Origin: an uncultured SAR116 cluster alpha proteobacterium
Lineage (GTDB): Bacteria > Pseudomonadota > Alphaproteobacteria > Puniceispirillales > GCA-002684695
Direction of reading: 5' to 3'
Assembly (NCBI GenBank): GCA_902532475.1
Contig: CACAIE010000018.1
Location: 1-36,483 of the forward strand
Length of the DNA: 36,483 nt
Shown here in pieces: positions 6,650 to 28,058 of the stretch. Numbering within the stretch: the stretch's first letter is position 1; every line of letters starts with the position of its first letter. Made by a program: the position numbers and the translations under genes. The notes under the pieces were generated by a model. It was not told the origin of the DNA, did no database searches, and saw only the letters and a program-made list of their open reading frames with translations.

Positions 6650-7573
6650 ATGGAGCGCCAAATTACTAAACATTTAGATAAAAAGATATTTGGAATAGCT
6701 ATTGACGCTGGAAGCGGCCTCAAAAAAGCATTAAAGCAGGCTCGTGCCAGGGACGCTAAAGAAGATGACTTACTTACCTTTAAAAGATCTGTAATATCAA
6801 TTTTAGGTCAATCTGCCTCAACAGTTCTAATAGATTCAACCTTCGGCCCAGATCTTATAAAACACTTTCCTACTAACTGTTCTCCTATGATGGCTTATGA
6901 GGCTGACGTGTACCATATTTCAGACAAGGACAGGATAACTCAATTACCTGAAAATATAAATATTTCAGACTTTTCAAAACTTGGGTACAAAGTTTTGAAA
7001 TTTTTTATGTATTACGCTCCTAATGACGATAAAAAAATCAACAAAAAAAAGGAAAGTATAATTGAGAAAATTGGAAAGGATTGTGTTGACAATAATATTT
7101 CTTTTTTAATGGAGCCTTTGGTTTACGATCCTTTCAAAAAACCTGGTAGCCTAGATTACGCCTTTCTGAAACCAAAGTTAGTTGAAAGAGCTACTAAAGT
7201 TTTTTCAAATCCAAAGTTTAACGTTGATATTTTAAAAGTAGAAGTGCCCGTGGACTTATCTTTTGTTGAGGGTTTTGGCGATCCAATTATGAAACAAAGT
7301 AAAGCAGTAAAATGTTTTAAAGATGCCTCAGATGCTGCCGGCGATATACCACTAGTATATCTTAGTGCGGGTGTTTCATTTAATTGGTTTAAATCTTCCA
7401 TCAAAATGGCTATTGAAGCTAAAGTGGATTGCTCTGGGTTCATGTGTGGAAGGGCTGTCTGGTCAGAAGCAATTAAAGTTTTTGGTGATAGCGGAGAAGA
7501 TGCACTAATTGAATGGTTAAATAAAGTTGGTCTTAATAGATTAAATCAGCTAATTTCATTATTTGAAAAATAA
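6650..7573 (+). CDS. LacD/YihT-like class I aldolase
   Basis: This 307-residue protein resembles the tagatose-1,6-bisphosphate aldolase (LacD) and sulfofructose-phosphate aldolase (YihT) family. The Schiff-base lysine is probably Lys196 in ILKVEVPVD. An EPLVYD element at 155-160 and the C-terminal phosphate-binding SAGVSFNWF...GFMCGRAVW region also match. The usual N-terminal AxDxRGS is changed to AIDAGSGL. It should release DHAP and an aldehyde from a ketose phosphate. It starts four bases after the DhaK-like gene, with no clear ribosome binding site, so translational coupling is likely. The acceptor aldehyde cannot be told from the sequence. Confidence 0.75.
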   Translation: MERQITKHLDKKIFGIAIDAGSGLKKALKQARARDAKEDDLLTFKRSVISILGQSASTVLIDSTFGPDLIKHFPTNCSPMMAYEADVYHISDKDRITQLPENINISDFSKLGYKVLKFFMYYAPNDDKKINKKKESIIEKIGKDCVDNNISFLMEPLVYDPFKKPGSLDYAFLKPKLVERATKVFSNPKFNVDILKVEVPVDLSFVEGFGDPIMKQSKAVKCFKDASDAAGDIPLVYLSAGVSFNWFKSSIKMAIEAKVDCSGFMCGRAVWSEAIKVFGDSGEDALIEWLNKVGLNRLNQLISLFEK

Positions 7574-7587
7574 TAATAGGGCAAAAT

Positions 7588-9006
7588 ATGAATACAAGAT
7601 TAAATATTTGTTTAGTAAAGACTTCCTTGCCCAGCTACTTCCCAGAAAAGCATAATGTTTGGAATAAGTGCTCAAATGGAGTTAAAAAAATTTGTGACGA
7701 AGTTGGGGTAAATTTTATAGAAATTTCTGAAATACCTATGAATTCGAATGAAGCGCATAAAGTATTAAAAAAGTGCAAGGATAACAATGCTGATTTCATT
7801 CTTGTTTTACATGGTGGATTTACTATGGGCGACGTTGCCCTCACCTTTGCAGCATCAAATTTCAGGCTAGGGTTTTGGTCTGTACCTGAACCAAAAAGAA
7901 TAGGTGACATACAATTAAATAATTTCGTTTCTTTAAATATGTCAATGTCAATTGCTCAAAAAGTGAGAGATGTCAAAAAATTTCCAATAAAATGGTTTCA
8001 TTGCAGCCCTGAGAGTAAAGACTTTCAGAAAAGACTTAAATTAACTTTAAAGTCACTTATAGCTCTTAAAACTTTATCAATAAGTAGAATTGGATTGATT
8101 GGTGGTTTGGCGATGACTTTTTACAACATGGAAGTTTCCATAACGGAGCTTAAGTCAAAATTAGGTATAGAAGTCTTCAATCACGACATACATGAGCTAA
8201 CGGATAGAATGTCACGACAACCAAAAGAAAAAGTTGGCATTGAAGTTTCCAAAATGCTTAAAGTAGCTCCATGTGACAATGTATCAAATGAGCAAATGGA
8301 ACTTTCCTCACGAGCTGCTCTATCACTTCGCGATATTGCAAACGAGAATAACTATAACGCTCTTGCAGTGAGTGACTGGCCTGCCCTTCAAGAGATTTCA
8401 AACATGCATCCAGGAGCAGCGTTTTCATGGCTGGAAGAAATAGATGAAATTCCTGTGGCTTCAGAAGGAGATGTTTTAGGAGCGGTAACTCAAATTATAG
8501 CAAAGTCGTTGACTGGGAAAGTGGGATATCTATTAGACATGACTGAACCTGATTTTGAAACTGGAAAACTGCTAATGTGGCATGGAGGGGGAGGTCCCCT
8601 GTACCTTGCTAATTCAGATGGTGTGAAATGGGTCAATCATCCCATGATTGGAAGAGGAACAAACGAAGGACCAATTTACGGAACAATTTCTGACCTCGTT
8701 TTCAAAGATGGACCCGTAACAGTTTTCAGGGTTTCCCAAAACGGAAATTCAATTTTTCAAATGACATCTGAAGTGAAAGGAAGAAACCCAAACGGTTTTA
8801 TAGGTTGCAGAGGCTGGTTAGAAAAATTTCAAATGGAAGATGAGAGCATTACTCTAAAGGATTTAGTGTCAACAGTTATGTATCACGGAATTGAGCATCA
8901 CTTTATACTAATACCTGGCAATCTTAGGGATGAATTGCATGAGTTAAGTGCCTGGTCTGGCATGCATAAGCTAGAACAGAAACATATGAAAAATTATGTT
9001 TTATAA
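7588..9006 (+). CDS. L-fucose/L-arabinose isomerase family protein
   Basis: This 472-residue cytosolic enzyme is of the L-fucose isomerase fold. Likely Mn ligands are Glu293 (ASEGDVLGA) and Asp317 (LLDMTE), spaced 24 residues apart as Glu337 and Asp361 are in E. coli FucI. A histidine comes from the C-terminal MYHGIEHH (433-438). A WHGGGGP loop at 331-337 stands where relatives have a WHCG-type loop. The family interconverts aldoses and ketoses. As the last gene of the operon it would supply the ketose for the DhaLK-type kinase. AATAGGG at 7576 serves as ribosome binding site. It ends eight bases before the convergent nucleoside hydrolase gene. Confidence 0.78.
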   Translation: MNTRLNICLVKTSLPSYFPEKHNVWNKCSNGVKKICDEVGVNFIEISEIPMNSNEAHKVLKKCKDNNADFILVLHGGFTMGDVALTFAASNFRLGFWSVPEPKRIGDIQLNNFVSLNMSMSIAQKVRDVKKFPIKWFHCSPESKDFQKRLKLTLKSLIALKTLSISRIGLIGGLAMTFYNMEVSITELKSKLGIEVFNHDIHELTDRMSRQPKEKVGIEVSKMLKVAPCDNVSNEQMELSSRAALSLRDIANENNYNALAVSDWPALQEISNMHPGAAFSWLEEIDEIPVASEGDVLGAVTQIIAKSLTGKVGYLLDMTEPDFETGKLLMWHGGGGPLYLANSDGVKWVNHPMIGRGTNEGPIYGTISDLVFKDGPVTVFRVSQNGNSIFQMTSEVKGRNPNGFIGCRGWLEKFQMEDESITLKDLVSTVMYHGIEHHFILIPGNLRDELHELSAWSGMHKLEQKHMKNYVL

Positions 9007-9014
9007 GTAAAAAA

Positions 9015-10115
9015 TCATAATTTATTTAGTTTTTCATAGAAATCTATGAAGATCTCATCTCGTCTTACGTCAAATGCTTCTCTCATCAGGTGCCTGTGAT
9101 CAGATTTTTCCCAAAGTAATTTATCATTTAAAACCGGTGAAGTCGTTAAAAAAGTTGGAACCCAATCAGGATTGATTAACCAAGCTATATTAATTATATC
9201 CCAAATAACCCAAGTTCTTCTGTATGTGTCATCAATAGCAAATTTCTTATGAAGAGGATTTTTTTCTGTATATAAATAATATAAATAATCTCCTATAGCA
9301 CCTTTTCCTTTAACAAATTTTTCCATTTCAGGCTCGGAGATCTTTAATTGTGCGCCCACATGGTATCCAGGCAAATATACATGTGGCACTCCACTATCAT
9401 ATATTAGCTTTGAAGAAATCGGATCCTGAACTAAATTCAATGAAGCACCATTGAAATGAGGGGAAAGTGAAGGATAGGCTGAAGTCCATATTACTACAAC
9501 ATCATTAATTATTTCAGGCGCCATTATTAGTGCAGAAGCAATATTTGTAGGGCACCCAATAGCAACGAGATAAAGCGGATCACTGCCGCTTTTTGCAAGA
9601 TCAATAATTAATTCAGAAGCGTCTGATTTAATTGGTCGATCTAATGACTTTAAGTAAGATGTTGAACCCCTGAATACTTTACCTTTAGACGGAATTGATA
9701 ACTTATCATAAACAGTTAAAATCTCCTGGTAACTTAGTTCCATCCCTTCATCTGTATTAACAAATTTTACTTCTTTGGCTTTAGCCCCCCTTTTGTGAAG
9801 TCTTTTAACCCACTCCAATGCGAAATTTGAAGGTGTCTCAGATATATTTTTCTCTATATTATTATTTTCTATATTTTCAAGATATTGTTCAGCTTCAACA
9901 ATTTCACGTTGATGATGAGCAAAAGAAAATGGTTCGGCTGTTACTGCCTCAATCTTTAACTTTTCTGGAGATAAAGCCGCCCAAGCAATTGCAAATTGAT
10001 CATCTATTTCATTGGCAGTATCTGTATCAATAATTACTCTAGTTAAGCCACTAGGATGCTCTAATTTTTCGATCATTTTATCCTTTGACAGCTTTGGAAA
10101 TTTTAGTTCTTTCAT
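9015..10115 (-). CDS. Inosine-uridine nucleoside hydrolase family protein
   Basis: This 366-residue protein carries the N-terminal metal-binding motif of nucleoside hydrolases in an extended form, IIDTDTANEIDD at 28-39. It also has a central AIGCPTNIASAL and NLVQDP, and a C-terminal WDIINIAWLINP near residue 325. In standard enzymes the last site reads HD; here Trp replaces the His. It is longer than the usual 310-320 residues. The family hydrolyses the N-glycosidic bond of ribonucleosides to base plus ribose, but this extended subgroup is less well defined. The start overlaps the GntR stop (ATGA), so the regulator probably controls this enzyme's substrate. Confidence 0.78.
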   Translation of the reverse strand: MKELKFPKLSKDKMIEKLEHPSGLTRVIIDTDTANEIDDQFAIAWAALSPEKLKIEAVTAEPFSFAHHQREIVEAEQYLENIENNNIEKNISETPSNFALEWVKRLHKRGAKAKEVKFVNTDEGMELSYQEILTVYDKLSIPSKGKVFRGSTSYLKSLDRPIKSDASELIIDLAKSGSDPLYLVAIGCPTNIASALIMAPEIINDVVVIWTSAYPSLSPHFNGASLNLVQDPISSKLIYDSGVPHVYLPGYHVGAQLKISEPEMEKFVKGKGAIGDYLYYLYTEKNPLHKKFAIDDTYRRTWVIWDIINIAWLINPDWVPTFLTTSPVLNDKLLWEKSDHRHLMREAFDVRRDEIFIDFYEKLNKL

Positions 10116-10879
10116 AATTTAATTTCTTGATCTAAAGACCTCTGCACTTTTGTTTGTTTAGATAAATTAAAACTCACTGTGTCATTGCGGTACACTTCTT
10201 CATGGAATACCGGCTTTCCTAGCTCATTAAATGCTGTGCAACCTAGTTTTAAAATCGGTTCTCCTGCCTTCATATTGAGAAGAGCAGCTACATCTTTATC
10301 AACTGACACTGGGCTGATATCCTCACAAGCAGCAGACCAATTCAATTTAAAGCGTTTACTTAATATTCTAAGAATTGACTGTCCAGGACCCTCCTCAGGG
10401 AAATCTTCTGGAGTTGCGTTTTGGATTAGATTAGAAGGTGCGTAAGTTATAACTAACATCCTAGGCTTTCCATTTACTATTCTAACTCTGGTTACTCTAG
10501 TAACATGGCTTGCTTCCAAAACCTCAGGTATTAAATCTTTAGTACTAGTATTGGGATCTAAATTGGTTATTGATATTAGCTTTGAACTTGGTTCGTGGCC
10601 AGCTCTTAACATTGCATCTGTAAATGATATCAAACAAGTATCCGATGCCGGTGATAATGTTAAAACTGTGTAACCGCTTCCCCTCCTACTTTCTACATAA
10701 CCATCTTTAACTAGCATGTCCAATGCATGACGAATTGTCACTCTACTCATATCGAACTGCTTAGCTAAATCTCCCTCTGTAGGCATCCTTGAACCAACAG
10801 GGTACCTGTCAGATTTAAGTCTATTAATTAAGGTGAAGTAAGCTTGTTCATATTTTGGCATATCATCAGTTATTTGCAT
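10112..10879 (-). CDS. GntR-family transcriptional regulator with UTRA domain (HutC subfamily)
   Basis: This 255-residue regulator has a winged helix-turn-helix at about residues 8-75 (PTEGDLAKQFDMSRVTIRHA is the recognition part, SRRGSGYTVL the wing). It is followed by a UTRA effector domain from about 90 to 245. Such proteins are usually repressors released by a small metabolite, often a sugar phosphate or amine. AAGGAG precedes the ATG at 10879. The gene lies 38 bp after the acyl-CoA synthetase and overlaps the nucleoside hydrolase by four bases. It is the only dedicated regulator in the window and may also control the adjacent sugar operon. Confidence 0.9.
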   Translation of the reverse strand: MQITDDMPKYEQAYFTLINRLKSDRYPVGSRMPTEGDLAKQFDMSRVTIRHALDMLVKDGYVESRRGSGYTVLTLSPASDTCLISFTDAMLRAGHEPSSKLISITNLDPNTSTKDLIPEVLEASHVTRVTRVRIVNGKPRMLVITYAPSNLIQNATPEDFPEEGPGQSILRILSKRFKLNWSAACEDISPVSVDKDVAALLNMKAGEPILKLGCTAFNELGKPVFHEEVYRNDTVSFNLSKQTKVQRSLDQEIKL

Positions 10880-10917: not shown

Positions 10918-12582
10918 TTAACTTTTTGCTTTTCTTTCTTCTCTTTCTCTAAGAACCCTCCTGTTAATTTTTCCTGAAGAGGTCATTCTAAAATTCTCTA
11001 CAAATTCAATTTCTCTCGGTGCTTTGTAAGCCGCCAAATTTTCTTTCACAAATGCTGTGATCTTTTTTGAAATAACGTTGTCTGCTTTATAATTTTTACG
11101 TAATTTAATAAAGGCCTTAACTATTGACCCTCTATCGGGGTCAGGTTTACCAATGACAGCAGCTTCAGCTACAGCATAGTGAGAAAGTAAAGAATCTTCT
11201 ATTTCTGTTGGCCCAATTCTAAATCCAGATGACTTTATCAAATCATCGGACCTACCCTTATACCAGAAGTAACCCTTTCTATCTCTAGACGCTAGATCAT
11301 GCGTTCTTAAATACGGTCCTAATTTCATTTCCTCTTCTTTGTCTTTATTGTTAAAATACCCTAAAAACCTCGTCGGGGAATCCGCAGTGGTTACAATTTC
11401 ACCTGTGCTACCGCAATCTACTGGATTAAGCTTTTCATCAACTAAAAACACTTTATGGCCGGGGTAAACTTTTCCCATAGAACCAGGTTTTCTTGGGAAC
11501 AATGCTTTGCAATTACCCACAAGATGATTTACTTCAGTCATGCCATAAAATTCATTGCAAATAACACCCAAACTATTTTCTGCCCATTCCAACGTTTCAC
11601 TAGCCAATGCCTCTCCGCCAGTACAGATTACCTTTAAGGATAAATTAAAATTCTCATGGGGATTTTCTATTTGTGCTAAACGCTTTATAGCTGTCGGCGC
11701 TAGAAAAGTGTGCGTTACCTTATGCCTCTCAATAAACTTATACGCCCATTCTGCATTGAACCTATCTTCCGAAGTGGCAATAGTTTTTCCGGCCATCCAT
11801 GCAGGAAACATCATATCCAACAACCCACCGACCCACGACCAATCTGAAGGAGACCAAAAAACTGAACCCTCTTCTTGCATGGAGAGATTAAAAAATAAAT
11901 TAATTGATGGTTTATAAGATGCTAAAACTCTGTGTCCGTGAAGGATGCCCTTTGGCTTTCCTGTCGATCCCGATGTATACATCAATAAGGCTGGGTCATT
12001 TGCTTTAGAGTAAAATGGTTTAAAATTATCATCTCTACTTAAGTACGCGCCCTCCAATGATATTTCATTATTTTTAGGTTCCCTTAAAATAATGTGCTTC
12101 AAATATGGAAATGCATTGCTTTTAATGTTTCTTAAGTTGCCCCAAACTTTGTTACTTGTTAAAATTACTTCCACTCTGCAATCGTTCATTGCGTGTTTGA
12201 GTGTTTCTGGACCATACAACTGAGAGAGAGTTACAGCGATGCCTCCGATTTTACATATAGCCATATGTGCAATAGTAGTATCGGGGTGCTGACCCGTATG
12301 CACAGCAATATTGTCTCCAAATCCATAACCTAAATGAGTCAATCTTATAGCTAAACCAGTAGCTAGTTTTTCTATTTCCCCAAAACTGAAAGTTTCAATT
12401 TCACCGTTATCCTTTTCATATATAATGGCTTTTTTATTTATATCTTCAGTATTCAAGTATCTGCCTAAGGTCATTTTATAAATATTTGCTTCGTAAGGAA
12501 TTTTAATCTTGACCTCATTATTTTCTCTTTCAAGACCAATGGCATCAAGTTCTATATCAGAAAGTTTTGAGAGATAATCCAT
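10918..12582 (-). CDS. AMP-forming acyl-CoA synthetase
   Basis: This 554-residue ligase activates a carboxylic acid to its CoA thioester through an acyl-adenylate. It shows the P-loop YTSGSTGKPKGI at 202-213, the EFYGMTE core motif, the hinge region YKGRSDDLIKSSGFRIGPTEIE and the C-terminal catalytic Lys538 in SSGKINR. Its features fit acetyl- or medium-chain acyl-CoA synthetase-like members of the ANL superfamily. The start overlaps the DUF35 stop by one base. In this operon it would make the acyl-CoA that the thiolase-fold protein then cleaves. The acid is unknown. Confidence 0.9.
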   Translation of the reverse strand: MDYLSKLSDIELDAIGLERENNEVKIKIPYEANIYKMTLGRYLNTEDINKKAIIYEKDNGEIETFSFGEIEKLATGLAIRLTHLGYGFGDNIAVHTGQHPDTTIAHMAICKIGGIAVTLSQLYGPETLKHAMNDCRVEVILTSNKVWGNLRNIKSNAFPYLKHIILREPKNNEISLEGAYLSRDDNFKPFYSKANDPALLMYTSGSTGKPKGILHGHRVLASYKPSINLFFNLSMQEEGSVFWSPSDWSWVGGLLDMMFPAWMAGKTIATSEDRFNAEWAYKFIERHKVTHTFLAPTAIKRLAQIENPHENFNLSLKVICTGGEALASETLEWAENSLGVICNEFYGMTEVNHLVGNCKALFPRKPGSMGKVYPGHKVFLVDEKLNPVDCGSTGEIVTTADSPTRFLGYFNNKDKEEEMKLGPYLRTHDLASRDRKGYFWYKGRSDDLIKSSGFRIGPTEIEDSLLSHYAVAEAAVIGKPDPDRGSIVKAFIKLRKNYKADNVISKKITAFVKENLAAYKAPREIEFVENFRMTSSGKINRRVLREREERKAKS

Positions 12583-17477: not shown

Positions 17478-18440
17478 ATGAAGATAATATTTAAAATATT
17501 TTTAGCAGCAATTTTTAGTTTAGGACTATCTATTCAATCTTTTGCAGCTGAGTGTATTGCCCCAGCAAACCCTGGTGGTGGTTGGGACTTTACCTGTAGA
17601 GCAATTACTAAAATTATGCATGACATAGGAGCAGTAGACTCTCCTATCCAAGTCACAAATATGGCTGGTGGAGGTGGAGGCCTTGCATACACCCATGTGG
17701 TTAATGAAAGAAATTCTGATGATAACCTAATTGTAGCGGCATCTTCAGCAACTGCTACTCGTTTAGCGCAAAATAAATATTCTGGAATGACATCAGATCA
17801 AGTAAGGTTCTTAGGAGCTATTGGCGCTGATCCAGGCGTTATAGTAGTTGGTAAAGATTCACCTTATCAAAATTTAAATGAACTTCTTGACGCTGTCATT
17901 GCTGACCCTTCAAAGGTTGCTTTTGCTGGAGGTTCTGCTGCGGGTGGATTTGATCATCTAAAAGTTCTTATGGCTTTAGGTCGAAAAGGATTTAAAGACA
18001 TCAGAAAAGTGAAGTATATTGGTGTTGACGGTGATGCTGATGCCATCGCACAGACTGTGGGTGGATTTACTGCTGCCATGACTGGTGATATCTCAGGAGT
18101 AGTAGGCTTTATTAAATCTGGAGACGTAAGAGTGCTTGCCTCATTTACTGACGAAAGAATTCCTGGTTTTGAAAGTATACCAACTGCTAAAGAACAAGGC
18201 ATAGATGTGGTCGCTGTTAACTGGCGTGGACTTTACACTCCTAAGGGTGCATCTGAAGCTTCTTATAAGAAGTGGACAGAAGCACTTAGAAAGGTTGGAG
18301 ATTCACCAGAATGGGATAAGACTATGAAAGAAAGAGGCTTAGCTCCATTCAACAAAGTTGGTGGCAACTTCCAGTCTTATGTTGATCAAGTAATTGGTGA
18401 AGTTAGAGCTTTATCAAAAGAGATAGGCGTAATTCAGTAA
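17478..18440 (+). CDS. tctC: Tripartite tricarboxylate transporter binding protein TctC
   Basis: This 320-residue periplasmic receptor has a signal peptide (MKIIFKIF, hydrophobic core, cleavage near SFAAE at about residue 24). A TctC-family body follows, with the carboxylate-binding loop ANPGGGWDFTCR and a second glycine loop NMAGGGGGLAY. It captures a carboxylate for the TctAB membrane pair. GGAGG lies four bases before the ATG. The tctB gene starts 27 bp later. The TctC family is broad, covering citrate, tartrate, terephthalate and other acids, so the ligand is open. Confidence 0.92.
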   Translation: MKIIFKIFLAAIFSLGLSIQSFAAECIAPANPGGGWDFTCRAITKIMHDIGAVDSPIQVTNMAGGGGGLAYTHVVNERNSDDNLIVAASSATATRLAQNKYSGMTSDQVRFLGAIGADPGVIVVGKDSPYQNLNELLDAVIADPSKVAFAGGSAAGGFDHLKVLMALGRKGFKDIRKVKYIGVDGDADAIAQTVGGFTAAMTGDISGVVGFIKSGDVRVLASFTDERIPGFESIPTAKEQGIDVVAVNWRGLYTPKGASEASYKKWTEALRKVGDSPEWDKTMKERGLAPFNKVGGNFQSYVDQVIGEVRALSKEIGVIQ

Positions 18441-18466
18441 AGCTAAACTATTTACGGTTTTATTGA

Positions 18467-18904
18467 ATGTCAGACCGATTAATTGGAATAATAATAGCTT
18501 TGATGGCACTTGCATTTTTTGCAAGTGCCACTCAGTTAGAGGCACCATTTTTCTCTGACCCTGTTGGGCCAAAGTTATTCCCTTATTTTATCTCAATAAT
18601 AGCTTTTTTGGCTTCATTTAGAATGATAATCATGCCAGATGAAAAACCAACCTGGCCAGTTTTATCAACCTTTGCTAGTTTGGGAATAGCTATAATTGTA
18701 TTAGTCTTTTACGCTTATAGTTTGCGTCCACTCGGATTTTTAGTTCCAACAGCTTTATGCGCTAGTATTTTATCTTACCAGATAAGGCCAAAGTACATTA
18801 CTTCGTTAATTACAGGCATCTCTTTGTCTATTGGATTATTTATTATCTTTAAGTTTTTATTAGGATTGGGTTTATTCGCATTTCCTAGATGGATTTGGGG
18901 TTAA
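18467..18904 (+). CDS. tctB: Tripartite tricarboxylate transporter small membrane subunit TctB
   Basis: This 145-residue membrane protein has about four hydrophobic segments and the TctB arrangement (N-terminal helix, conserved DPVGPKLFPY stretch near residue 35). It partners TctA in sodium- or proton-driven uptake. The start lacks a clear ribosome binding site, suggesting low or coupled translation. A strong hairpin lies at 18504-18530, within its first 22 codons. The stop is two bases before the preferred tctA start. Confidence 0.88.
   Translation: MSDRLIGIIIALMALAFFASATQLEAPFFSDPVGPKLFPYFISIIAFLASFRMIIMPDEKPTWPVLSTFASLGIAIIVLVFYAYSLRPLGFLVPTALCASILSYQIRPKYITSLITGISLSIGLFIIFKFLLGLGLFAFPRWIWG
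18504..18530 (+). repeat. Perfect 11-bp hairpin inside the start of tctB
   Basis: The arms TGGCACTTGCA (18504-18514) and TGCAAGTGCCA (18520-18530) are exact complements with a loop of five T. The hairpin lies 64 bases after the tctC stop and 37 after the tctB start. No T-run follows the stem. It could shield the tctC message, slow tctB translation, or both. Confidence 0.7.
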
Positions 18905-18906
18905 TA

Positions 18907-20409
18907 ATGGAATTGTTTGCAAATTTATCATTAGGATTTTCAATAGCGTTAACCACAACAACACTAATGCTTGCTGTTATTGGTTGTATTTTAGGAACCA
19001 TGATAGGAGCTCTTCCTGGGCTTGGACCAACAAATGGAGTGGCAATATTAATACCTATTTCATTTACCTTAGGCCTGGACGCTACCCAGGCGCTAGTCTT
19101 AATGACGAGTGTCTATTACGGCGCCATGTATGGCGGTCGTATTTCTTCCATTCTATTAAATATTCCTGGGGATGAGCCTGCAGTAATGACAACTCTTGAT
19201 GGTTACCCAATGGCTAAAAATGGAAGGGCGGGTGACGCTTTAGTGTTATCTGGTTTTGCTTCTTTTGTAGGAGCGTTTTTAGCTACAATTGGTTTAATGT
19301 TACTTGCACCCATGTTGGCTCAGGTTGCATTTATGTTTGGTCCAGCTGAATATTTTGCACTATACCTTCTTGCCTTCTGTACTCTGGGTGGATTGGGATC
19401 AAACAATCAAGCCAAGGCTGCAATCTCTGTTTGTCTCGGCTTAGGAATTGCCATGATTGGAGTTGATAGCTCAACTGGAATGACTAGATTTACAGGTGGA
19501 AATCTCCATCTTTTCGATGGCATTGATTTCCTTGTAGCAATCGTTGGTTTATTTGCTATTACTGAAATATTTGTCTTTATAGAAAGTCACGGCAAAGAAA
19601 CAGCTATCGGTGTTAAATTAGAAAAAATATCAATCCCAATAAAAGAAATTGTTTATACTCGTTGGACAGTATTACGTGGATCATGCATTGGATTTGTGGC
19701 AGGCTTGTTACCTGGTGCGGGAGCTTCAATCGGAAGTTTTTTGGCGTACATGTCTGAAAAAGCAATCGTAAAAGACAACTCATCTTTTGGGAAGGGAGAC
19801 CCAAGAGGAGTAGCAGCTCCTGAAGCAGGAAATAACGCTGCGGCTGGCGGCGCATTAATTCCAATGCTGACATTAGGAATTCCAGGCTCAGGAACCACTG
19901 CGGTACTTCTTGCTTTGCTTATGACTCTAAATATTACCCCCGGACCTCTTTTATTTACTGAACGCCCGGAAGTTGTTTGGGGATTGATAGCCACTTTGTT
20001 GATTGCAAATGTTATGCTTTTAATACTTAATGTGCCATTGGTTAAGTTTTTTACAAAAATCCTTCAAGTTCCAGCTTCTATTTTATTGCCTGGCGTAACA
20101 ATGATTTCCTTTGTAGGCATTTACTCATTAACTGGCAGTCACTTTGACCTGTTGCTGATGATTGGATTTGGTGTCTTAGGATATTTTCTTAGAAAATTTA
20201 GCATCCCCTCTGTTCCTGTAATTCTAGGTATTTTACTTGGAGGTCACATGGAAGTAAGTCTGAGACGGGCAATGGTATTATCAGATGGAGACTGGACTTA
20301 CTTGCTGTCATCTCCAATATCAATTGGTCTTTGGGTGGCTGCAATTTTAGGCTTTGTTGCTCCCATTTTTCTTAAATCTATATTAAAAAAACCAACTCCC
20401 AATCAATAA
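18907..20409 (+). CDS. tctA: Tripartite tricarboxylate transporter large membrane subunit TctA
   Basis: This 500-residue protein has 10-12 hydrophobic helices and the two conserved TctA glycine-rich segments, GALPGLGPTNG near residue 35 and AGLLPGAGASIGS near 260. I choose ATG 18907 (MELFANLSLGFSIAL) over the in-frame ATG 18889, because it matches the usual family N-terminus and leaves no overlap with tctB. It completes the tctCBA operon. It ends five bases from the stop of the convergent ureohydrolase gene. Confidence 0.92.
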   Translation: MELFANLSLGFSIALTTTTLMLAVIGCILGTMIGALPGLGPTNGVAILIPISFTLGLDATQALVLMTSVYYGAMYGGRISSILLNIPGDEPAVMTTLDGYPMAKNGRAGDALVLSGFASFVGAFLATIGLMLLAPMLAQVAFMFGPAEYFALYLLAFCTLGGLGSNNQAKAAISVCLGLGIAMIGVDSSTGMTRFTGGNLHLFDGIDFLVAIVGLFAITEIFVFIESHGKETAIGVKLEKISIPIKEIVYTRWTVLRGSCIGFVAGLLPGAGASIGSFLAYMSEKAIVKDNSSFGKGDPRGVAAPEAGNNAAAGGALIPMLTLGIPGSGTTAVLLALLMTLNITPGPLLFTERPEVVWGLIATLLIANVMLLILNVPLVKFFTKILQVPASILLPGVTMISFVGIYSLTGSHFDLLLMIGFGVLGYFLRKFSIPSVPVILGILLGGHMEVSLRRAMVLSDGDWTYLLSSPISIGLWVAAILGFVAPIFLKSILKKPTPNQ

Positions 20410-20414
20410 TTTAC

Positions 20415-21419
20415 TTATTTACTATCCGCTTTCATTTTCCAGGCTATTTGAGACATGATTTCAAATGCTATAGAACCTGCCACCATTGAAGTTATGTTAT
20501 TTGGATTATCTTTAGTCGGCATTAAGCAAACTATATCCCCTCCTATAACATTCAAACCTTTAACTGATTGGATTAGTGAAATTGCCTCATCAACAGAAAA
20601 GCCATTACAACCAGGCTCTAAATTTGATACCGCTGGAGCTATAGTTGGATCCAGGCAATCTAAATCAAAAGTGATGTAGACAGGGTTTTCGCCTAGGGTT
20701 GATTTTATTTTCTTTATTACTTGTTGAAGACCTTGTTCCTTATATTCATCCATAGTCACAACTTGGTATCCAAGATCGTAACTCGGGTTCAACCAATCCA
20801 ATGTCCTAGTATTCCCCCTCAATCCCACCTGAATAGAAGTTTTCGCATTAATCAACCCTTCCCTGACGCAGAAACTTGCCCAGTGAGCCGCGCTATCCTT
20901 AGCACCTAAAAAGTGGTCAAGATTATCGAATGTATCTGTATGAGCGTCAATGTGCAGCAATGAAACTGGCTTGCCATTTGTTAACTTTGATCCCGCACCA
21001 GATATGCCCCTCAGTATTCCTCCAGTAATAGAATGATCCCCTCCTATAGAAACTGGCTTTATTAAATTTTCTGATATATTTTTATAAAAATTAGAAATAT
21101 CTCTAATGCATGCTTCATTGTTATTTGCTTCTGGTAAGGGCACATCGCCTAAATCATTAACTTTTGCTTCTTCCCATGGAGAAAACTCATACTTCATGTG
21201 AACCCTTCTTAGACTTCCCGAAACATTTCTGACTGCCCTTGGACCGAGATGCTGGTCTCTTTCTGTTGTGCCGTTGCCTGTTGAGTGAGGAACACCAATA
21301 AATCCAATGTCAGTATTCTCTAAACTTTCTTGAAAGTTGCACTTAAAAAATGATGGGATGCCCCACCAATACATTGTGTCCATCATCAATTTATCTTGAT
21401 CAAATTTTTTGTTAGTCAT
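20415..21419 (-). CDS. Agmatinase-family ureohydrolase
   Basis: This 334-residue enzyme should split a guanidino compound to urea and an amine. All six Mn ligands are visible: His129 (GGDHS), Asp158, His160 and Asp162 (DAHTD), Asp252 and Asp254 (FDLDCLDP). The substrate loop after them reads APAVSNLEPG instead of the common APGTGTPE, so agmatine should not be assumed. Guanidinobutyrate or another guanidine compound is as likely. I use the ATG at 21419, with GGGAG upstream and an ATGA overlap with the cupin stop, rather than an in-frame TTG further out. It is the last gene of a three-gene operon. Confidence 0.85.
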   Translation of the reverse strand: MTNKKFDQDKLMMDTMYWWGIPSFFKCNFQESLENTDIGFIGVPHSTGNGTTERDQHLGPRAVRNVSGSLRRVHMKYEFSPWEEAKVNDLGDVPLPEANNNEACIRDISNFYKNISENLIKPVSIGGDHSITGGILRGISGAGSKLTNGKPVSLLHIDAHTDTFDNLDHFLGAKDSAAHWASFCVREGLINAKTSIQVGLRGNTRTLDWLNPSYDLGYQVVTMDEYKEQGLQQVIKKIKSTLGENPVYITFDLDCLDPTIAPAVSNLEPGCNGFSVDEAISLIQSVKGLNVIGGDIVCLMPTKDNPNNITSMVAGSIAFEIMSQIAWKMKADSK

Positions 21420-21841
21420 ATTTTCGGCTCCCAACCTTTTTTAGCCATTTCAAAACCATCAAATGAGAAAGCAGGGGAAACAATGCAACTTACTAATGAC
21501 CATTTCCCAATAGACTTAGCTGACTGCCAAATCGACTTTGGAATAACTACTTGTAATTTTTCATTCAGTTTTAAATTTGGGCCAAGTTTTATTTCTTTAT
21601 TTATAGCTTCATTATCTGAGTAAGAAAGTATTAACGGGTCACCCAAGTGCCAAAGCCAGATTTCATCTGCGTCATTCACTCTATGCCAGTAAGACACCTC
21701 TCCTTCTTGAAGCAAGTAGTAAATCATGGATACAATTGACCTTTTGTGAGAGATAATATTTGATTGAAAAGTTTCCTTGTACCACCCGCCTTCCGGGTGA
21801 GGAGTTAAATCTAAATCTTCAATTATTTTTTTTGCATTCAT
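21416..21841 (-). CDS. DUF985 cupin protein
   Basis: This 141-residue RmlC-like cupin has the DUF985 signatures: LTPHPEGGWYKETF near residue 11, SMIYYLL, then HRVNDADEIWLWHLGDPL. No enzyme activity is firmly assigned to the family. His53 in YWHRVND, Glu59 (DEIW) and a later His are candidates for a ligand or metal site. It overlaps the ureohydrolase start by four bases and follows the racemase-family gene by 16 bp, so the three are probably one transcript and act on related compounds. Confidence 0.83.
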   Translation of the reverse strand: MNAKKIIEDLDLTPHPEGGWYKETFQSNIISHKRSIVSMIYYLLQEGEVSYWHRVNDADEIWLWHLGDPLILSYSDNEAINKEIKLGPNLKLNEKLQVVIPKSIWQSAKSIGKWSLVSCIVSPAFSFDGFEMAKKGWEPKI

Positions 21842-21857
21842 TTATAACTTCACCAAA

Positions 21858-22607
21858 CTAAAATGTATACAATTGACCAAAGTCAGGCATTTTTTCCTGG
21901 ATACCTGCGAGCCTCATGCAATGCCAAGCCATGGCATGATTTGAAGTAGTAACTGGGATGCCTATTGATCTTTCTAATTCTGGTATGAATTCCATAAATC
22001 TAATGCTTGTGCAGGAAATAAAAACCATGTCCACCGTTTTATTAGCAATGATCTTCTTCACTCCAGAGATTATGCTTTGACTATCTATAGAAGCCACCAC
22101 CGGGTCACTTATTTCATTAAATGAACCAAAAGAAGAGATGTTGTATCCTTTTCCTTCTATGTAGTTAGTAATATGTGAATTTACTTCTTTAACGTATGGC
22201 GTAAGTACCGCTATATTTTTTGCTCGGAAAGAATCAAACGCTTCAAATGCTGCTGTTATAGGCGTAGTGCAATACGCTTCAGGGTGAACAGCTCTAATAG
22301 ATTTAGTAATTGCTTGTTCGCCCAATACAACTGTAGCAGAAGTACAAGCATAAGCCACGACATCTAATCTATCTCCTGGCAGAATAAGTTTCAATGTTGT
22401 TGAAATTTTTGATCCCATATCACTTAGAGATTCAGGAGTAATAATAGGGGAATTTTCTATTCTTGCGTGAAAATAATCGGTTCCATTTACAGGGAATATA
22501 GCTCTAAACTCATGATCAATTGTATAATCTGAAGCCAAAACGATTAAGCCAATTTTTTTTCTTGTTTCAATAAATTTATCAGTTGTAAATTTTAAATTTT
22601 CTATCAT
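21858..22607 (-). CDS. Asp/Glu racemase superfamily protein (maleate isomerase/EutA-like)
   Basis: This 249-residue protein belongs to the Asp/Glu racemase, maleate cis-trans isomerase and arylmalonate decarboxylase superfamily. Both active-site cysteines are present: Cys88 in YACTSATVVLG and Cys199 in ISCTSIRF. This favours a racemase or isomerase over arylmalonate decarboxylase, which has a single Cys. The ectoine-degradation protein EutA is a relative. It is the first gene of a - strand operon with a DUF985 cupin and a ureohydrolase, and lies opposite the tctCBA transporter. A carboxylate or amino-acid substrate is likely, but not fixed by sequence. Confidence 0.78.
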   Translation of the reverse strand: MIENLKFTTDKFIETRKKIGLIVLASDYTIDHEFRAIFPVNGTDYFHARIENSPIITPESLSDMGSKISTTLKLILPGDRLDVVAYACTSATVVLGEQAITKSIRAVHPEAYCTTPITAAFEAFDSFRAKNIAVLTPYVKEVNSHITNYIEGKGYNISSFGSFNEISDPVVASIDSQSIISGVKKIIANKTVDMVFISCTSIRFMEFIPELERSIGIPVTTSNHAMAWHCMRLAGIQEKMPDFGQLYTF

Positions 22608-23714: not shown

Positions 23715-24887
23715 ATGTCTAAACTAGTAAATCCTCATGGGCAAACATCATTGAGACCTCTCCTGCTCAAAAACAAAGAAAGAGATGAAGAAATAAAGAA
23801 AGCTGTAAAACTCAAAAAAATACCCATGTCTTCAAGAGAGTTATCTGACTTACTAATGATGGGTATGGGAGCTTACACCCCATTAAATGGATTTATGTGC
23901 GAAGAGGACTGGAAAAGTTGTTGTTTAGATTTAAAAACTGCAGAGGGATTATTCTGGCCTATACCAATCACTTTATCAGTCAAGAAAAGTCTTGGGGATA
24001 GTATTCAAATTAATGAAGAGTTGTCCCTGGTAAATGAGAAAGGTAAAATTTTTGGGACTATAGAAGTAAAAGAAAAATATTCTATCGACAAGGATTTTGA
24101 ATGCAGAAATGTATTTAATACAATCGACACAAGTCATCCTGGCGTGGAAAAGGTTTTCAATCAGGGCGCTATAAATATAGGGGGACCAGTAAAAGTCATT
24201 GATGAAGATCACTACCCAAGTTCATACAAAGGCCTCTACTTTACTCCTGCAGAAACGAGATCTATATTTAAACAAAATGGGTGGTCAACAGTCGCTGCAT
24301 TTCAAACTCGAAACCCAATGCACCGTAGTCATGAATACTTAGCTAAAATAGCTATAGAAATCTGTGACGGCCTTCTGATCCATCAAGTGTTAGGTGCTCT
24401 TAAAAAGGGGGACATACCTGCTGAAATTCGCGTTAAATGCATTGACAATATGGTAAAGAACTATTTCGTTAAAGGAAGTGCAATTCAAGCTGGTTATCCA
24501 ATAGAAATGAGATACGGTGGGCCCAAAGAAGCGCTTCTGCATGCATTATTCCGTCAAAATTTTGGTTGCTCTCATCTTATTGTTGGTCGAGATCACGCAG
24601 GCATTGGAAGTTTTTACGGGCCGTTTGACGCTCATCATATTTTTGACGAAATACCTTCTGGAAGCATGGAAACCAAGGCCCTTAAAATTGATATTACGTT
24701 TTACTGTTACAAATGCAATGGAATGGCTACTGGAAAAACGTGCCCTCATGAAGAAAGTCAAAGACTTCATGTTTCCGGAACTCGATTTAGAGAAATGTTA
24801 GTCAATAATGAAGAAGTTCCAAAAGAGTTTAGCAGGCCTGAAGTTTTAGAAATTTTGAGAGGCTTTTATCAACAAGAAAATATGTAA
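23715..24887 (+). CDS. sat: Sulfate adenylyltransferase (ATP sulfurylase), dissimilatory type
   Basis: This 390-residue enzyme interconverts ATP plus sulfate with APS plus pyrophosphate. The active-site motifs [11 protein letters not shown] at 197-207 and GRDHAG at 291-296 are intact. A zinc-binding set (Cys331, Cys334, Cys343, His345) and [11 protein letters not shown] follow, as in the homo-oligomeric Sat of sulfur oxidisers and reducers. Next to aprMBA it most likely runs toward ATP and sulfate. There is no fused kinase domain; a separate APS kinase lies at 29320. AAGGAAAAAT precedes the ATG. It ends 63 bp before aprM. Confidence 0.95.
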
Positions 24888-24894
24888 TTTCACA

Positions 24895-24933
24895 TTGACT
24901 TTTGAATCAAATCAACTATTTAAATACTATAAT
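24895..24933 (+). promoter_or_regulatory. Candidate promoter of aprMBA
   Basis: TTGACT at 24895-24900 and a perfect TATAAT at 24928-24933 lie in the 63-bp gap between sat and aprM. The spacing between them (27) is too long to form one promoter. TTTAAA at 24919-24924 is 18 bases from TTGACT. A promoter here is plausible but not certain; AAAAGG at 24938-24943 serves as ribosome binding site. Confidence 0.3.
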
Positions 24934-24950
24934 TTTTAAAAGGTTTCTCA

Positions 24951-25736
24951 ATGTTTTCCCAAAATCCATTTGTAGAATTATTGAATTTAATTCCGGCTGA
25001 AGCAATGCAAGGTTTTGTAATTTTAATGTTTCTTCTTGTTTTTGGTGGAACAATTTACGACATGATTGAAAAGCAAAATGCTACTTACTTTTTCAGAAAT
25101 TGGAGAAAGTCAAAACTGAGCAAAGTCAGGGAAATCTCATTTAGTGAAATGCTGGTGATAATTTTTAAAACAGTAACTGTAGATGTTTTTTCTGCCGCTG
25201 AATTTTGTAGCTTCAACAGAAGGCTAGCACATTTGCTTACTTTTTATGGTTTTATTGGTTATGTAATTACCACAGTTATAATGGTTTTTGGGTACCTGCC
25301 TGAAAAATCAGCTACACCTGAAATTATTCCAACATTATGGTATTTAAGCGCGCTTTTAATTAGTATTGGTTGCTACTGGTTTTGGTTTTTTATACGAGTT
25401 GATGTCGCAGCAGAAGGCAACCCTAGACTTAGACTGGTTCAAGCTGATATTTTTGTTCTTTCTCTGGCAATTAGCTCTACTGTTGCAATAGTTTGGGGAT
25501 TAACCCAATCATCTAATCCACTTCTTTCAAATATATTTTTGTTATTATATATAGTATCGAATTTAGTTTTATTTGGATCAATACCATGGTCAAAATTTGC
25601 GCATATGTTTTATAAGCCTGGCGCAGCATTGCAAAAAAGGGTGGCTGATGCTGATGGGTCAAGAAGAAACCTTCCTGAACCTGCAGATAAACCTGCAATA
25701 CTAGGAACTGCTAAAAGAATTCCAAGAAATTACTGA
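24951..25736 (+). CDS. aprM: AprM-like membrane anchor for APS reductase
   Basis: This 261-residue protein has about five to six transmembrane helices (near 18-35, 90-112, 125-145, 165-185 and 195-212) and a basic cytoplasmic tail. It resembles AprM and the heme-b membrane subunits of the QmoC/HdrE type. In sulfur oxidisers such as purple sulfur bacteria, aprM precedes aprBA and is thought to carry electrons from APS reductase to the quinone pool. His residues within helices (for example RRLAHLLTFYG) could ligate heme. The position directly upstream of aprBA is the strongest argument for the name. Confidence 0.82.
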   Translation: MFSQNPFVELLNLIPAEAMQGFVILMFLLVFGGTIYDMIEKQNATYFFRNWRKSKLSKVREISFSEMLVIIFKTVTVDVFSAAEFCSFNRRLAHLLTFYGFIGYVITTVIMVFGYLPEKSATPEIIPTLWYLSALLISIGCYWFWFFIRVDVAAEGNPRLRLVQADIFVLSLAISSTVAIVWGLTQSSNPLLSNIFLLLYIVSNLVLFGSIPWSKFAHMFYKPGAALQKRVADADGSRRNLPEPADKPAILGTAKRIPRNY

Positions 25737-25758
25737 CTGAACAGGAGAAAATTAAAAT

Positions 25759-26220
25759 ATGTCAACTTTTGTATATATGACTAGTTGTGATGGTTGTGGG
25801 CACTGTGTAGATATCTGCCCTTCCGATATTATGCACATTGATCCAACCACTAGGAGAGCCTATAATATCGAGCCAAATTTTTGTTGGGAGTGTTACTCTT
25901 GCGTCAAAGCGTGTCCCCAAAATGCTATAGACGTTAGAGGTTACGCTGACTTTGCTCCGATGGGTCACAGCGTAAGAGTTCTCAGAGAGGAAGAAAAAGG
26001 AACTGTTTCTTGGAAGATAAAGTTTCGCGACGGCAGAGAAAAAAATTTCGTTTCACCTATAAGAACAACCCCATGGGGCTCAATCAAAGGTCCAGCAGAA
26101 TATGAGGATCCAAATACTCAAGATTTTGCTACTCAGCAACTAGCGCACGAACCAGATGCCTTAAAGATTGACTCATTGCCAACTATATCTAGAAGTCAGT
26201 TTGTAGAAGGCCCACTGTAA
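25759..26220 (+). CDS. aprB: Adenylylsulfate reductase beta subunit (2 x [4Fe-4S])
   Basis: This 153-residue ferredoxin-like subunit carries electrons between the AprA flavin and the membrane partner. Eight cysteines form two clusters: Cys10, 13, 16 and 20 (CDGCGHCVDIC) and Cys42, 45, 48 and 52 (CWECYSCVKAC). A C-terminal tail from about residue 75 wraps around AprA in known structures. CAGGAGAAAAT precedes the ATG. The stop overlaps the aprA start by one base (TAATG), which suits a 1:1 complex. Confidence 0.96.
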   Translation: MSTFVYMTSCDGCGHCVDICPSDIMHIDPTTRRAYNIEPNFCWECYSCVKACPQNAIDVRGYADFAPMGHSVRVLREEEKGTVSWKIKFRDGREKNFVSPIRTTPWGSIKGPAEYEDPNTQDFATQQLAHEPDALKIDSLPTISRSQFVEGPL

Positions 26221-28058
26221 TGGCATCACGAAAAACTATATATGTAGATTCTGATGTTCTGGTAATTGGTGGAGGCTTTGGTGGTTGCGGCGCTGCATAC
26301 GAATCACGTTACTGGGGTAGAGATAAGAAAATAGTTGTGGTTGAAAAAGCAAACATTGAAAGAAGTGGTGCGGTTGCACAAGGTTTATACGCAATCAATT
26401 GCTACATGGGTATGCAGTGGAATGAAAATAAGCCTGAAGACCATGTTAGATACGCCAGAAACGACTTAATGGGATTAGTGAGAGAGGATCTTGGCTATGA
26501 TATAGCTCGTCACGTAGATTCTACAGTCCATAAGTTTGAGGAATGGGGTCTGCCAATCATGAGAGACCCTGAAAATGGTCGTTACCAACGTGAAGGCAAG
26601 TGGCAGATAATGATCCACGGTGAAAGTTACAAGCCTATTATCGCAGAGGCTGCAAGAAAGGCAGCTACAGAAGTGTATAACAGGATTATGGTCACTCACC
26701 TATTGATGGACAAAAATAAGCCTAATCGTGTTGCGGGAGCGGTTGGTTTCAATGTCAGGACAGGTGACTTTTATATTTTTAGATCTAAAGCTGTCGTAGT
26801 ATCTGCGGGTGGAGCTTCACATATTTTTAAACCACACTCAGTTGGAGAAGGAATGGGTCGCACCTGGTATGCGCCTTGGAGTAGTGCTTCAGCTTACGCT
26901 CTCCCAATAAGAGTTGGCGCAAAAATGACACAAATGGAAAATAGGATTGTTCTGACAAGATTTAAAGACGGCTACGGTCCTGTGGGAGCATATTTTTTAC
27001 ATCTAAAGACTACAACAGAAAATGGCTATGGCAAAAGTTATGAGAATACATGGTATGACTCAATAAAAGCTATGGTTGGGGATTACGTTGATCAACAACC
27101 AGTCCCAACATGCCTTAGAAACCATGCGTTTTTAAAAGAGGTCCAAGCAGGAAGAGGCCCAATTAGAATGGTAACCAAGGAAGCATTCAAAGACCCTCAC
27201 AAAGAAACGATTGGATGGGAAAACTTCTTGGGCATGACTATTGGCCAAGCCGTTGTCTGGGCTTCACAAAATATTGACCCTAAAGAAACTAATCCAGAAT
27301 TAGTGATGTCTGAGCCTTATGTAATGGGATCTCACGCTACTTGTTCTGGGGCTTGGGCAAGTGGACCAAGTGACTATGCACCTGATGACTATCAATGGGG
27401 TTACAATAGAATGATGACTGTTGAAGGTCTATTTGGTTCTGGAGACACAATAGGCGGGACAGCACATAAATTTTCATCTGGTTCGTTTACGGAAGGTAGA
27501 ATAGCTGGGAAGTCTGCCATCAACTACGTCAACGACCTTGGCAATGACCAACCCGAAGTAAGTGAAGAAGAATATTCAAATCTAAAAGAATTAGTTTATA
27601 AGCCATTAGAAAATTATACAGTTGGAAGAAATGAAATCACTAGTGGCACTGTCTCTCCTAGTTACATTCTGCCGATCCAAGGCCTTCAAAGGCTTGAAAA
27701 AATAATGGATGAATACGTTGGAGGAACAAGTACTGACTACCTTACTAATGAACCCATGCTTTTAAGGGGAATCGAGCTTCTAACAATGCTGAAAGAAGAC
27801 TTAAGTAATATTGGTGCCGATAGTCTTCACCAACTCCAAAGAGCATGGGAACTCAATCATAGAGTTATAGCTTCTGAATGCGTGACACAGCATACTTTGT
27901 TTAGGAAAGAAACTAGGTGGCCAGGATACTATTATAGGGGAGATCATCCAAAATTAGATGATAAAGATTGGCATTGCTTCACATTATCTCAATTTGATGA
28001 AAAGGCTGATACTTGGTCAATGGAAAAAGCTCCTGTTCATCACATTATTGATAAATAA
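26220..28058 (+). CDS. aprA: Adenylylsulfate reductase alpha subunit (FAD)
   Basis: This 612-residue flavoprotein is the catalytic subunit. In the oxidative direction it joins sulfite and AMP to APS, passing two electrons to AprB. The N-terminal FAD-binding loop GGGFGGCGAAYESR is at about 17-30, followed by RSGAVAQGLYAINCYMG. Later blocks VSAGGASHIF and SHATCSGAWASG, and a C-terminal segment HRVIASECVTQHTLFR, are typical of AprA. Length is as expected. The order aprM-aprB-aprA with Sat upstream, and no Dsr or Qmo genes in view, points to sulfite oxidation, as proposed for SAR11 and SUP05-type marine bacteria. Confidence 0.96.
   Translation: MASRKTIYVDSDVLVIGGGFGGCGAAYESRYWGRDKKIVVVEKANIERSGAVAQGLYAINCYMGMQWNENKPEDHVRYARNDLMGLVREDLGYDIARHVDSTVHKFEEWGLPIMRDPENGRYQREGKWQIMIHGESYKPIIAEAARKAATEVYNRIMVTHLLMDKNKPNRVAGAVGFNVRTGDFYIFRSKAVVVSAGGASHIFKPHSVGEGMGRTWYAPWSSASAYALPIRVGAKMTQMENRIVLTRFKDGYGPVGAYFLHLKTTTENGYGKSYENTWYDSIKAMVGDYVDQQPVPTCLRNHAFLKEVQAGRGPIRMVTKEAFKDPHKETIGWENFLGMTIGQAVVWASQNIDPKETNPELVMSEPYVMGSHATCSGAWASGPSDYAPDDYQWGYNRMMTVEGLFGSGDTIGGTAHKFSSGSFTEGRIAGKSAINYVNDLGNDQPEVSEEEYSNLKELVYKPLENYTVGRNEITSGTVSPSYILPIQGLQRLEKIMDEYVGGTSTDYLTNEPMLLRGIELLTMLKEDLSNIGADSLHQLQRAWELNHRVIASECVTQHTLFRKETRWPGYYYRGDHPKLDDKDWHCFTLSQFDEKADTWSMEKAPVHHIIDK

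Follow-up and report, generated by a model that had tools for sequence, protein, structure and literature searches.

An arginase-fold hydrolase with a clade-wide Cys-for-Glu change in a candidate racemase-cupin-ureohydrolase operon of one SAR116 genus

According to our analysis, three adjacent minus-strand ORFs of the window (the whole stretch of DNA that was analyzed, 36,483 nucleotides) look like one operon. The first, RAC (21858..22607), encodes a EutA-like protein of the Asp/Glu racemase superfamily with 249 aa and the cysteines C88 and C199 (Pfam Amdase, 72.1 bits). It is followed after a gap of 16 bp by CUP (21416..21841), a DUF985 cupin of 141 aa (Pfam PF06172, Cupin_5/DUF985, 153.3 bits against a cut-off of 25), and then by UREO, an arginase-fold hydrolase (Pfam PF00491, Arginase, 216.2 bits against a cut-off of 22). 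UREO can be read as 334 aa from an ATG at 21419 (20415..21419) or, as in the ORF call, as 339 aa from a TTG at 21434 (20415..21434). The shorter form is the likelier one because its ATG overlaps the stop codon of CUP as ATGA (21416..21419, minus strand); the residue numbers used here are nevertheless those of the 339-residue form. The short gap and the overlap confirm the tight coupling of the three genes noted in the first-pass annotation, and we infer that they are co-transcribed. Convergent with UREO, on the plus strand, lie the genes of a tripartite tricarboxylate transporter, TctCBA (17478..20409), consisting of TctC (17478-18440, 84.4 bits), TctB (18467-18904, 55.8 bits) and TctA (18889-20409, 507.4 bits), so that all six products have Pfam matches. 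At its other end, the operon adjoins genes named by eye as sulfate adenylyltransferase and AprM/AprB/AprA-like (23715-28058); orthologues of the three Apr-like genes (again named by eye) are close to the operon in two sister genomes, G003 and G004, too.

Four of the five genomes of the window's SAR116 genus, the window's own included, carry intact RAC, CUP and UREO genes in an unchanged order, and the trio is therefore more than a chance grouping. The order has been retained while RAC and CUP diverged to 67-74% identity among these genomes. The fifth genome (G002, 61% complete) had no match to any of the three and no ureohydrolase at E 1e-10. The linkage is narrow, being seen in this one genus only. 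RAC relatives occur in 45 of the 136 genomes of the order (E 1e-20), and among 30 loci of the order, taken with about 1.5 kb per side, CUP and UREO stood beside RAC only in the four genomes of the window's genus; 11 wider RAC loci from other genera of the order contained neither of them. Among the other UREO loci (47 rows from SAR11 plus those from outside it), none had RAC within 9 kb.

It had been proposed that TctCBA imports the substrate of the trio, and a survey of how well the three genes are conserved together with tctCBA had been suggested. The outcome was mostly negative: the trio was seen in a single genus, and sister species carry different Tct genes. TctA, TctC and TctB of G001 are 95, 92 and 72% identical to those of the window, respectively; the genes at the same place in G003 and G004 show 40-41% (TctA) and 33% (TctC) identity, with a class III CoA-transferase lying between TctA and UREO. 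The Tct genes have been replaced in these two genomes, so a Tct transporter still occupies this place, though not the same one; this rules out TctCBA as a conserved partner of the trio and makes it an exchangeable neighbor of the operon. A locus from another genus of the order (L084) speaks mildly for a transport link, since TctC- and TctA-like genes (26 and 32% identity) and a CoA-transferase are found no more than 7 kb from its RAC relative. It is the only one of the 11 wide loci of the order with Tct genes near a RAC relative, and a similar CoA-transferase occurs within about 8 kb in three of the 11. Of the first-pass annotation as a whole, the coupled genes and the unusual ureohydrolase thus stand, whereas an association of the three genes outside the genus, or with TctCBA, is not confirmed.

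The cupin is uninformative for the pathway. Its solved relatives (1znp, 1yud and 3loi) are unnamed proteins, of which 1znp aligns with the full length of CUP (128 bits). The DUF985 cupins Atu3615 (1znp) and SO0799 (1yud) belong to the same family and have no assigned function, and hence none can be transferred to CUP. Among the UREO loci compared outside the genus, the sole cupin nearby is a DUF985 protein in L061, 7.4 kb away and on the other strand. The suggestion that the cupin may gain a role from its context is not advanced here, and CUP is given no step in our proposal.

UREO has all six metal ligands of the ureohydrolases (H134, D163, H165, D167, D257, and D259), as had been stated of its Mn ligands, and the odd loop reported in place of the agmatinase motif APGTGTPE is likewise real, reading DLDCLDPTIAPAVSNLEPG. 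A larger departure than the loop, absent from the earlier description, is position 303, which is Cys in UREO and Glu in other ureohydrolases. We carried out a residue census of 112 distinct ureohydrolase ORFs, 87 nearest UREO and 25 others, after a coverage filter had removed the L050 row, which has a broken frame with a match of 217 residues and was odd in another alignment. In the UREO clade, 87/87 ORFs had all six metal ligands together with Asn271, Glu273 and Cys303, whereas 25/25 of the others had Glu at 303 and a gap at 273; Glu also occupies the 303 column in all eight solved ureohydrolase sequences compared. Asn271 and Glu273 are contained in a clade-wide two-residue insertion of the loop (VSNxE). 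His184 aligns by eye with the catalytic His and is invariant in 47/47 rows, while one of 17 rows of another alignment (L054) has Asn in this column. We take the 303 column to be that of Glu277 of arginase, placed by the DxVE motif. UREO thus combines a match to the PF00491 profile and the six ligands with the loss of the Glu that holds the guanidinium group in guanidinium-cleaving ureohydrolases. In arginase, Glu277 is described as orienting the guanidinium group (PMC9224512), and a Glu taken here as the same one is called essential to the human enzyme and is shared by AGMAT and GbuA (PMC9772407). Judging from the alignment, Cys303 would be placed in the pocket, and the residues speak against an ordinary agmatinase.

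The Cys proteins also separate in the phylogenetic tree, for which 51 of the 112 ORFs were removed at ≥90% identity and the motif columns were excluded. In the resulting 61-row tree, made by a quick method and with several long branches flagged, the 38 Cys proteins form one side of one branch with an SH-aLRT of 100 and a stem length of 2.1. The clade is distinct and apparently uncharacterized, with a substrate-binding residue changed throughout. An AlphaFold2 model of UREO from a 47-row alignment had a mean pLDDT of 83, with values <50 for residues 52-62 inside the GNGTTERDQH signature. Its best solved match was 3nip (Z 40.4, rmsd 2.3 over 299 residues), the 3-guanidinopropionase GpuA of Pseudomonas aeruginosa; the fold is also shared with the guanidinobutyrase GbuA of the same species (3nio, Z 30.7). 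Both enzymes have the same metal ligands as UREO at about 29% identity, but they carry Glu in place of Cys303 and the motif APGTGTPE without the two-residue insertion.

The clade is patchily distributed, as it was found in 4 of 398 genomes in a phylum-wide search (E 1e-105) and in 13 of 385 genomes of the class (E 1e-70), the window genome counted in both. Relatives with 49-67% identity come from the 12 other genomes of the class, from plasmid records and from SAR11. Of 54 matching plasmid records, at least five among the 20 listed carry one (Ruegeria pomeroyi, Alisedimentitalea, Rhodobacteraceae M382, and two Rhodococcus replicons), and at least 47 of the best 80 matching loci are assigned by their titles to Pelagibacteraceae, Pelagibacter or Pelagibacterales (SAR11). 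Nine SAR11 genomes, chosen for having UREO, encode two or three PF00491 proteins each, so that UREO is accompanied by one or two other members of the family and is an extra enzyme rather than the sole ureohydrolase. In public records, the genes of the clade are labeled arginase family protein. No published characterization of the clade was recognized in the full-text literature, a weak negative given that subscription journals are mostly outside it; the accessible text of a transporter-mutant study of R. pomeroyi (PMC10130141) contains neither the word arginase nor the locus-tag stem, and that of a paper on SAR11 polyamines names speB and speB1 (PMC8437039). The window genome itself (G000, 1.94 Mb, 65% complete) has nine ureohydrolase matches, located on contigs C18, C29, C1, C35, C5 (three) and C47 (two). 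Two of the three on C5 adjoin, and those of C47, one at each end of this 9.8-kb contig, make up an inverted near-repeat, possibly an assembly effect.

The neighborhoods of UREO in SAR11 were compared within 9 kb in 47 loci, which share one synteny and are not independent events. The names of neighbor families rest on one representative each, and many of them on sub-cut-off scores or reading by eye: the representatives of choline dehydrogenase, AptA and alanine dehydrogenase scored above the curated cut-off, whereas the HD, TauD, carnitine, Rieske, BHMT-like and DMGDH-like names lie below it. One or more genes from a betaine set (betaine, choline, carnitine) were present in 45 of the 47 loci. 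By family, a choline-dehydrogenase-like gene occurred in 40, an HD-domain oxygenase and a carnitine-route gene in 37 each, a TauD-like gene in 34, and a glycine-betaine-type ABC gene in 30. Most SAR11 loci have UREO and its neighbors on opposite strands, and in the 40 loci with the choline-dehydrogenase-like gene UREO is convergent with that gene and thus lies outside its operon. A DMGDH-like gene is beside UREO in five SAR11 loci (L112, L114, L115, L130, and L143), on the same strand except in L130. Elsewhere, the aminotransferase AptA and alanine dehydrogenase are encoded directly before UREO in 10 loci (L094, L096-L098, L100, L101, L103, L104, L106, and L118).

A betaine ABC transporter was found at L052, L053, L055, L060 (= L110), L092, L093 and L165, which include roseobacters. 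A second ureohydrolase gene follows UREO directly in the roseobacter records L052, L053 and L055 and lies within 7 kb of it in L163 and L173; these partners belong to one clade, and the window genome has a member of it on another contig (L002). On the roseobacter replicons, betaine-type ABC genes, the UREO-clade gene and the second ureohydrolase gene stand in a row (L052, 11977-13958; also L053 and L055), the two ureohydrolase genes of R. pomeroyi, where the UREO-clade member is SPO_RS21005, overlapping by 4 bp. Near the Rhodococcus copy of UREO there are creatininase-family and urea-carboxylase-associated genes. Genes in GC-rich loci were called with a simple purpose-made caller. A betaine-type ABC ATPase (≥42% identity) occurs in 8 of 50 distinct non-SAR11 UREO loci (nine matches in 55 rows less the duplicate genomes L088-L091 and L110), against 0 of 13 control loci of another ureohydrolase clade searched for betaine-type ABC genes at the same identity, four of which are shorter than 11 kb. 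These numbers are too few, and we claim no betaine association outside SAR11; in the window, no betaine gene was identified beside UREO. The recurring theme is small osmolytes and omega-amino acids rather than one partner, and it is patchy outside SAR11.

The RAC family has C88 in 30/30 and C199 in 29/30 aligned rows (one gap), and thus both cysteines of the two-cysteine Asp/Glu racemase superfamily. Aligned by eye, they are presumably the catalytic pair of two-base racemases. The nearest solved sequences, those of arylmalonate decarboxylase and maleate isomerase (3ixm and 2xec), are weak matches with 63 bits at best, and only one active-site Cys is present in wild-type arylmalonate decarboxylase, compared with two in RAC. 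The model for EutA of hydroxyectoine breakdown (NCBIfam TIGR02990) is matched nearly over its full length with 208.2 bits, below the cut-off of 318, a score that leaves an identification of RAC as the ectoine EutA unsupported; the racemase step of EutA is itself a proposal (PMC5924519). Unlike EutA, relatives of RAC sit with DadA and RidA. A DadA-like gene (≥48% identity) is beside RAC in six of the 11 wide loci from the order, and a RidA-like gene in six, both references being taken from L082, itself one of the 11; the reference DadA passes the NCBIfam cut-off for a D-amino-acid dehydrogenase subfamily (410 versus 383 bits). Class-wide, RAC relatives were found in 24 of 372 genomes (E 1e-60). 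Of the 22 outside the order, 21 were compared (G425 was left out), and 18 of the 21 loci had a DadA-like gene (≥43%) within 6 kb on either strand. Such neighbors point to RAC being a racemase of amino acids whose product usually passes to a D-amino-acid dehydrogenase. No close DadA was found in the window genome, 65% complete, the best match showing 23% identity. At L195 (about 7388-10500, minus strand; G192:C1), in an unrelated genome, a RAC relative (51%), a DadA-like gene (48%) and a ureohydrolase gene of another clade are adjacent.

Based on these comparisons, we tentatively propose, with a probability of roughly 40%, a catabolic operon assembled in one SAR116 genus, in which UREO is a C-N hydrolase of small zwitterionic guanidino or ureido osmolytes and not an ordinary agmatinase, and RAC is an amino-acid racemase. 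UREO would hydrolyze a C-N bond at a two-metal center with its substrate held otherwise than in arginase or agmatinase, Cys303 replacing the guanidinium-binding Glu and the inserted loop offering the invariant Asn271 and Glu273. The substrate, suggested by the neighbors of UREO in other bacteria, would most likely be a small zwitterionic guanidino or N-alkyl-guanidino acid (e.g., creatine, guanidinoacetate, 3-guanidinopropionate, or taurocyamine), handled alongside choline, carnitine, glycine betaine or omega-amino acids and split into urea and an amine. Because the lost Glu normally holds the very guanidino group proposed, a guanidino acid would need Glu273 or another residue instead: either Glu273 would stand in for it with a guanidino acid as substrate, which might carry an N-alkyl group as creatine does, or a neutral substrate would be used. 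RAC would most likely invert an amino-acid center by a two-cysteine mechanism, one stereoisomer entering or leaving the route. It is from the residues and gene neighborhoods that we infer the activity of UREO, its substrate and the direction of flux. A wider claim, that UREO represents a new arginase-fold activity in SAR11, SAR116 and other ocean bacteria, directed at a methylated osmolyte and hydrolyzing its neutral or tertiary C-N group, seems to us doubtful.

With the anionic Glu lost, a cation is no longer needed, and UREO may cleave a neutral group (a ureide, hydantoin, carbamoyl or other amide) instead of guanidinium. The Cys in 87/87 sequences fits this, as do a hydantoinase-like gene (by eye) after UREO in L092 and L093, a Zn-dependent hydrolase gene and an ADI/amidinotransferase-family gene upstream in the M382 and Alisedimentitalea clusters, Zn-hydrolase relatives (32%) in L147 and L161, and the genes near the Rhodococcus copy. 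Such neighbors are, however, in a minority of loci, the closest structures are guanidino-acid hydrolases, and the inserted loop offers the invariant Glu273, so we regard a neutral substrate as rather unlikely. Somewhat less probable still is that RAC, CUP and UREO are neighbors by history, with unrelated jobs and no common pathway. The restriction of the trio to one genus and the other company kept by RAC and UREO relatives elsewhere would agree with this; the ATGA overlap, the 16-bp gap and the order kept in 4/4 gene-bearing genomes despite the divergence of RAC and CUP to 67-74% identity argue against it.

The intact metal ligands leave UREO open to mislabeling as an agmatinase or arginase, and the Pfam Arginase match and the public family label would agree with such an enzyme. 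UREO scores 118.1 bits with the NCBIfam agmatinase model (TIGR01230, cut-off 174.3) and also falls below the cut-offs for arginase and formimidoylglutamase; together with the clade-wide Cys for Glu and the long separate stem, this makes an ordinary enzyme very improbable. Paired arginase-family genes are known from the metformin hydrolase MetCaCb, and the same-clade second ureohydrolase gene after UREO in three roseobacter records or within 7 kb in L163 and L173, from a clade also represented on a separate contig of the window genome, recalls this arrangement. A role of UREO as a non-catalytic partner subunit, as MetCb is for MetCa, appears the most remote of these readings: a partner is nearby in only 5 of 55 non-SAR11 rows, both members of the UREO pairs keep their metal ligands, and UREO has all six, whereas three to five of the six are mutated in the MetCb clade (PMC11271267). 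The genes of the window genome most like a MetCaCb pair (L005) fall on another branch than UREO.

Small dissolved compounds make up most of the diet of SAR11 and SAR116. Should an osmolyte be what UREO cleaves, as in the catabolic reading that we prefer, the generic arginase-family name would conceal a step of marine nitrogen turnover. Automatic annotation of this clade as agmatinase or arginase is unsafe. The invariant Cys-for-Glu change also offers a direct handle on substrate selection in the arginase fold.

No riboswitch was detected by Rfam at gathering thresholds in the window, L059 and L072-L076, where the search returned four tRNAs and one group I intron. The intron lies in L072 (10305-10515, minus strand; G000:C29 about 12304-12514) and scored 60.3 bits against a cut-off of 50, ARAGORN finding no tRNA there. 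Some 135 bp downstream of it, and on its strand, lies another ureohydrolase gene.
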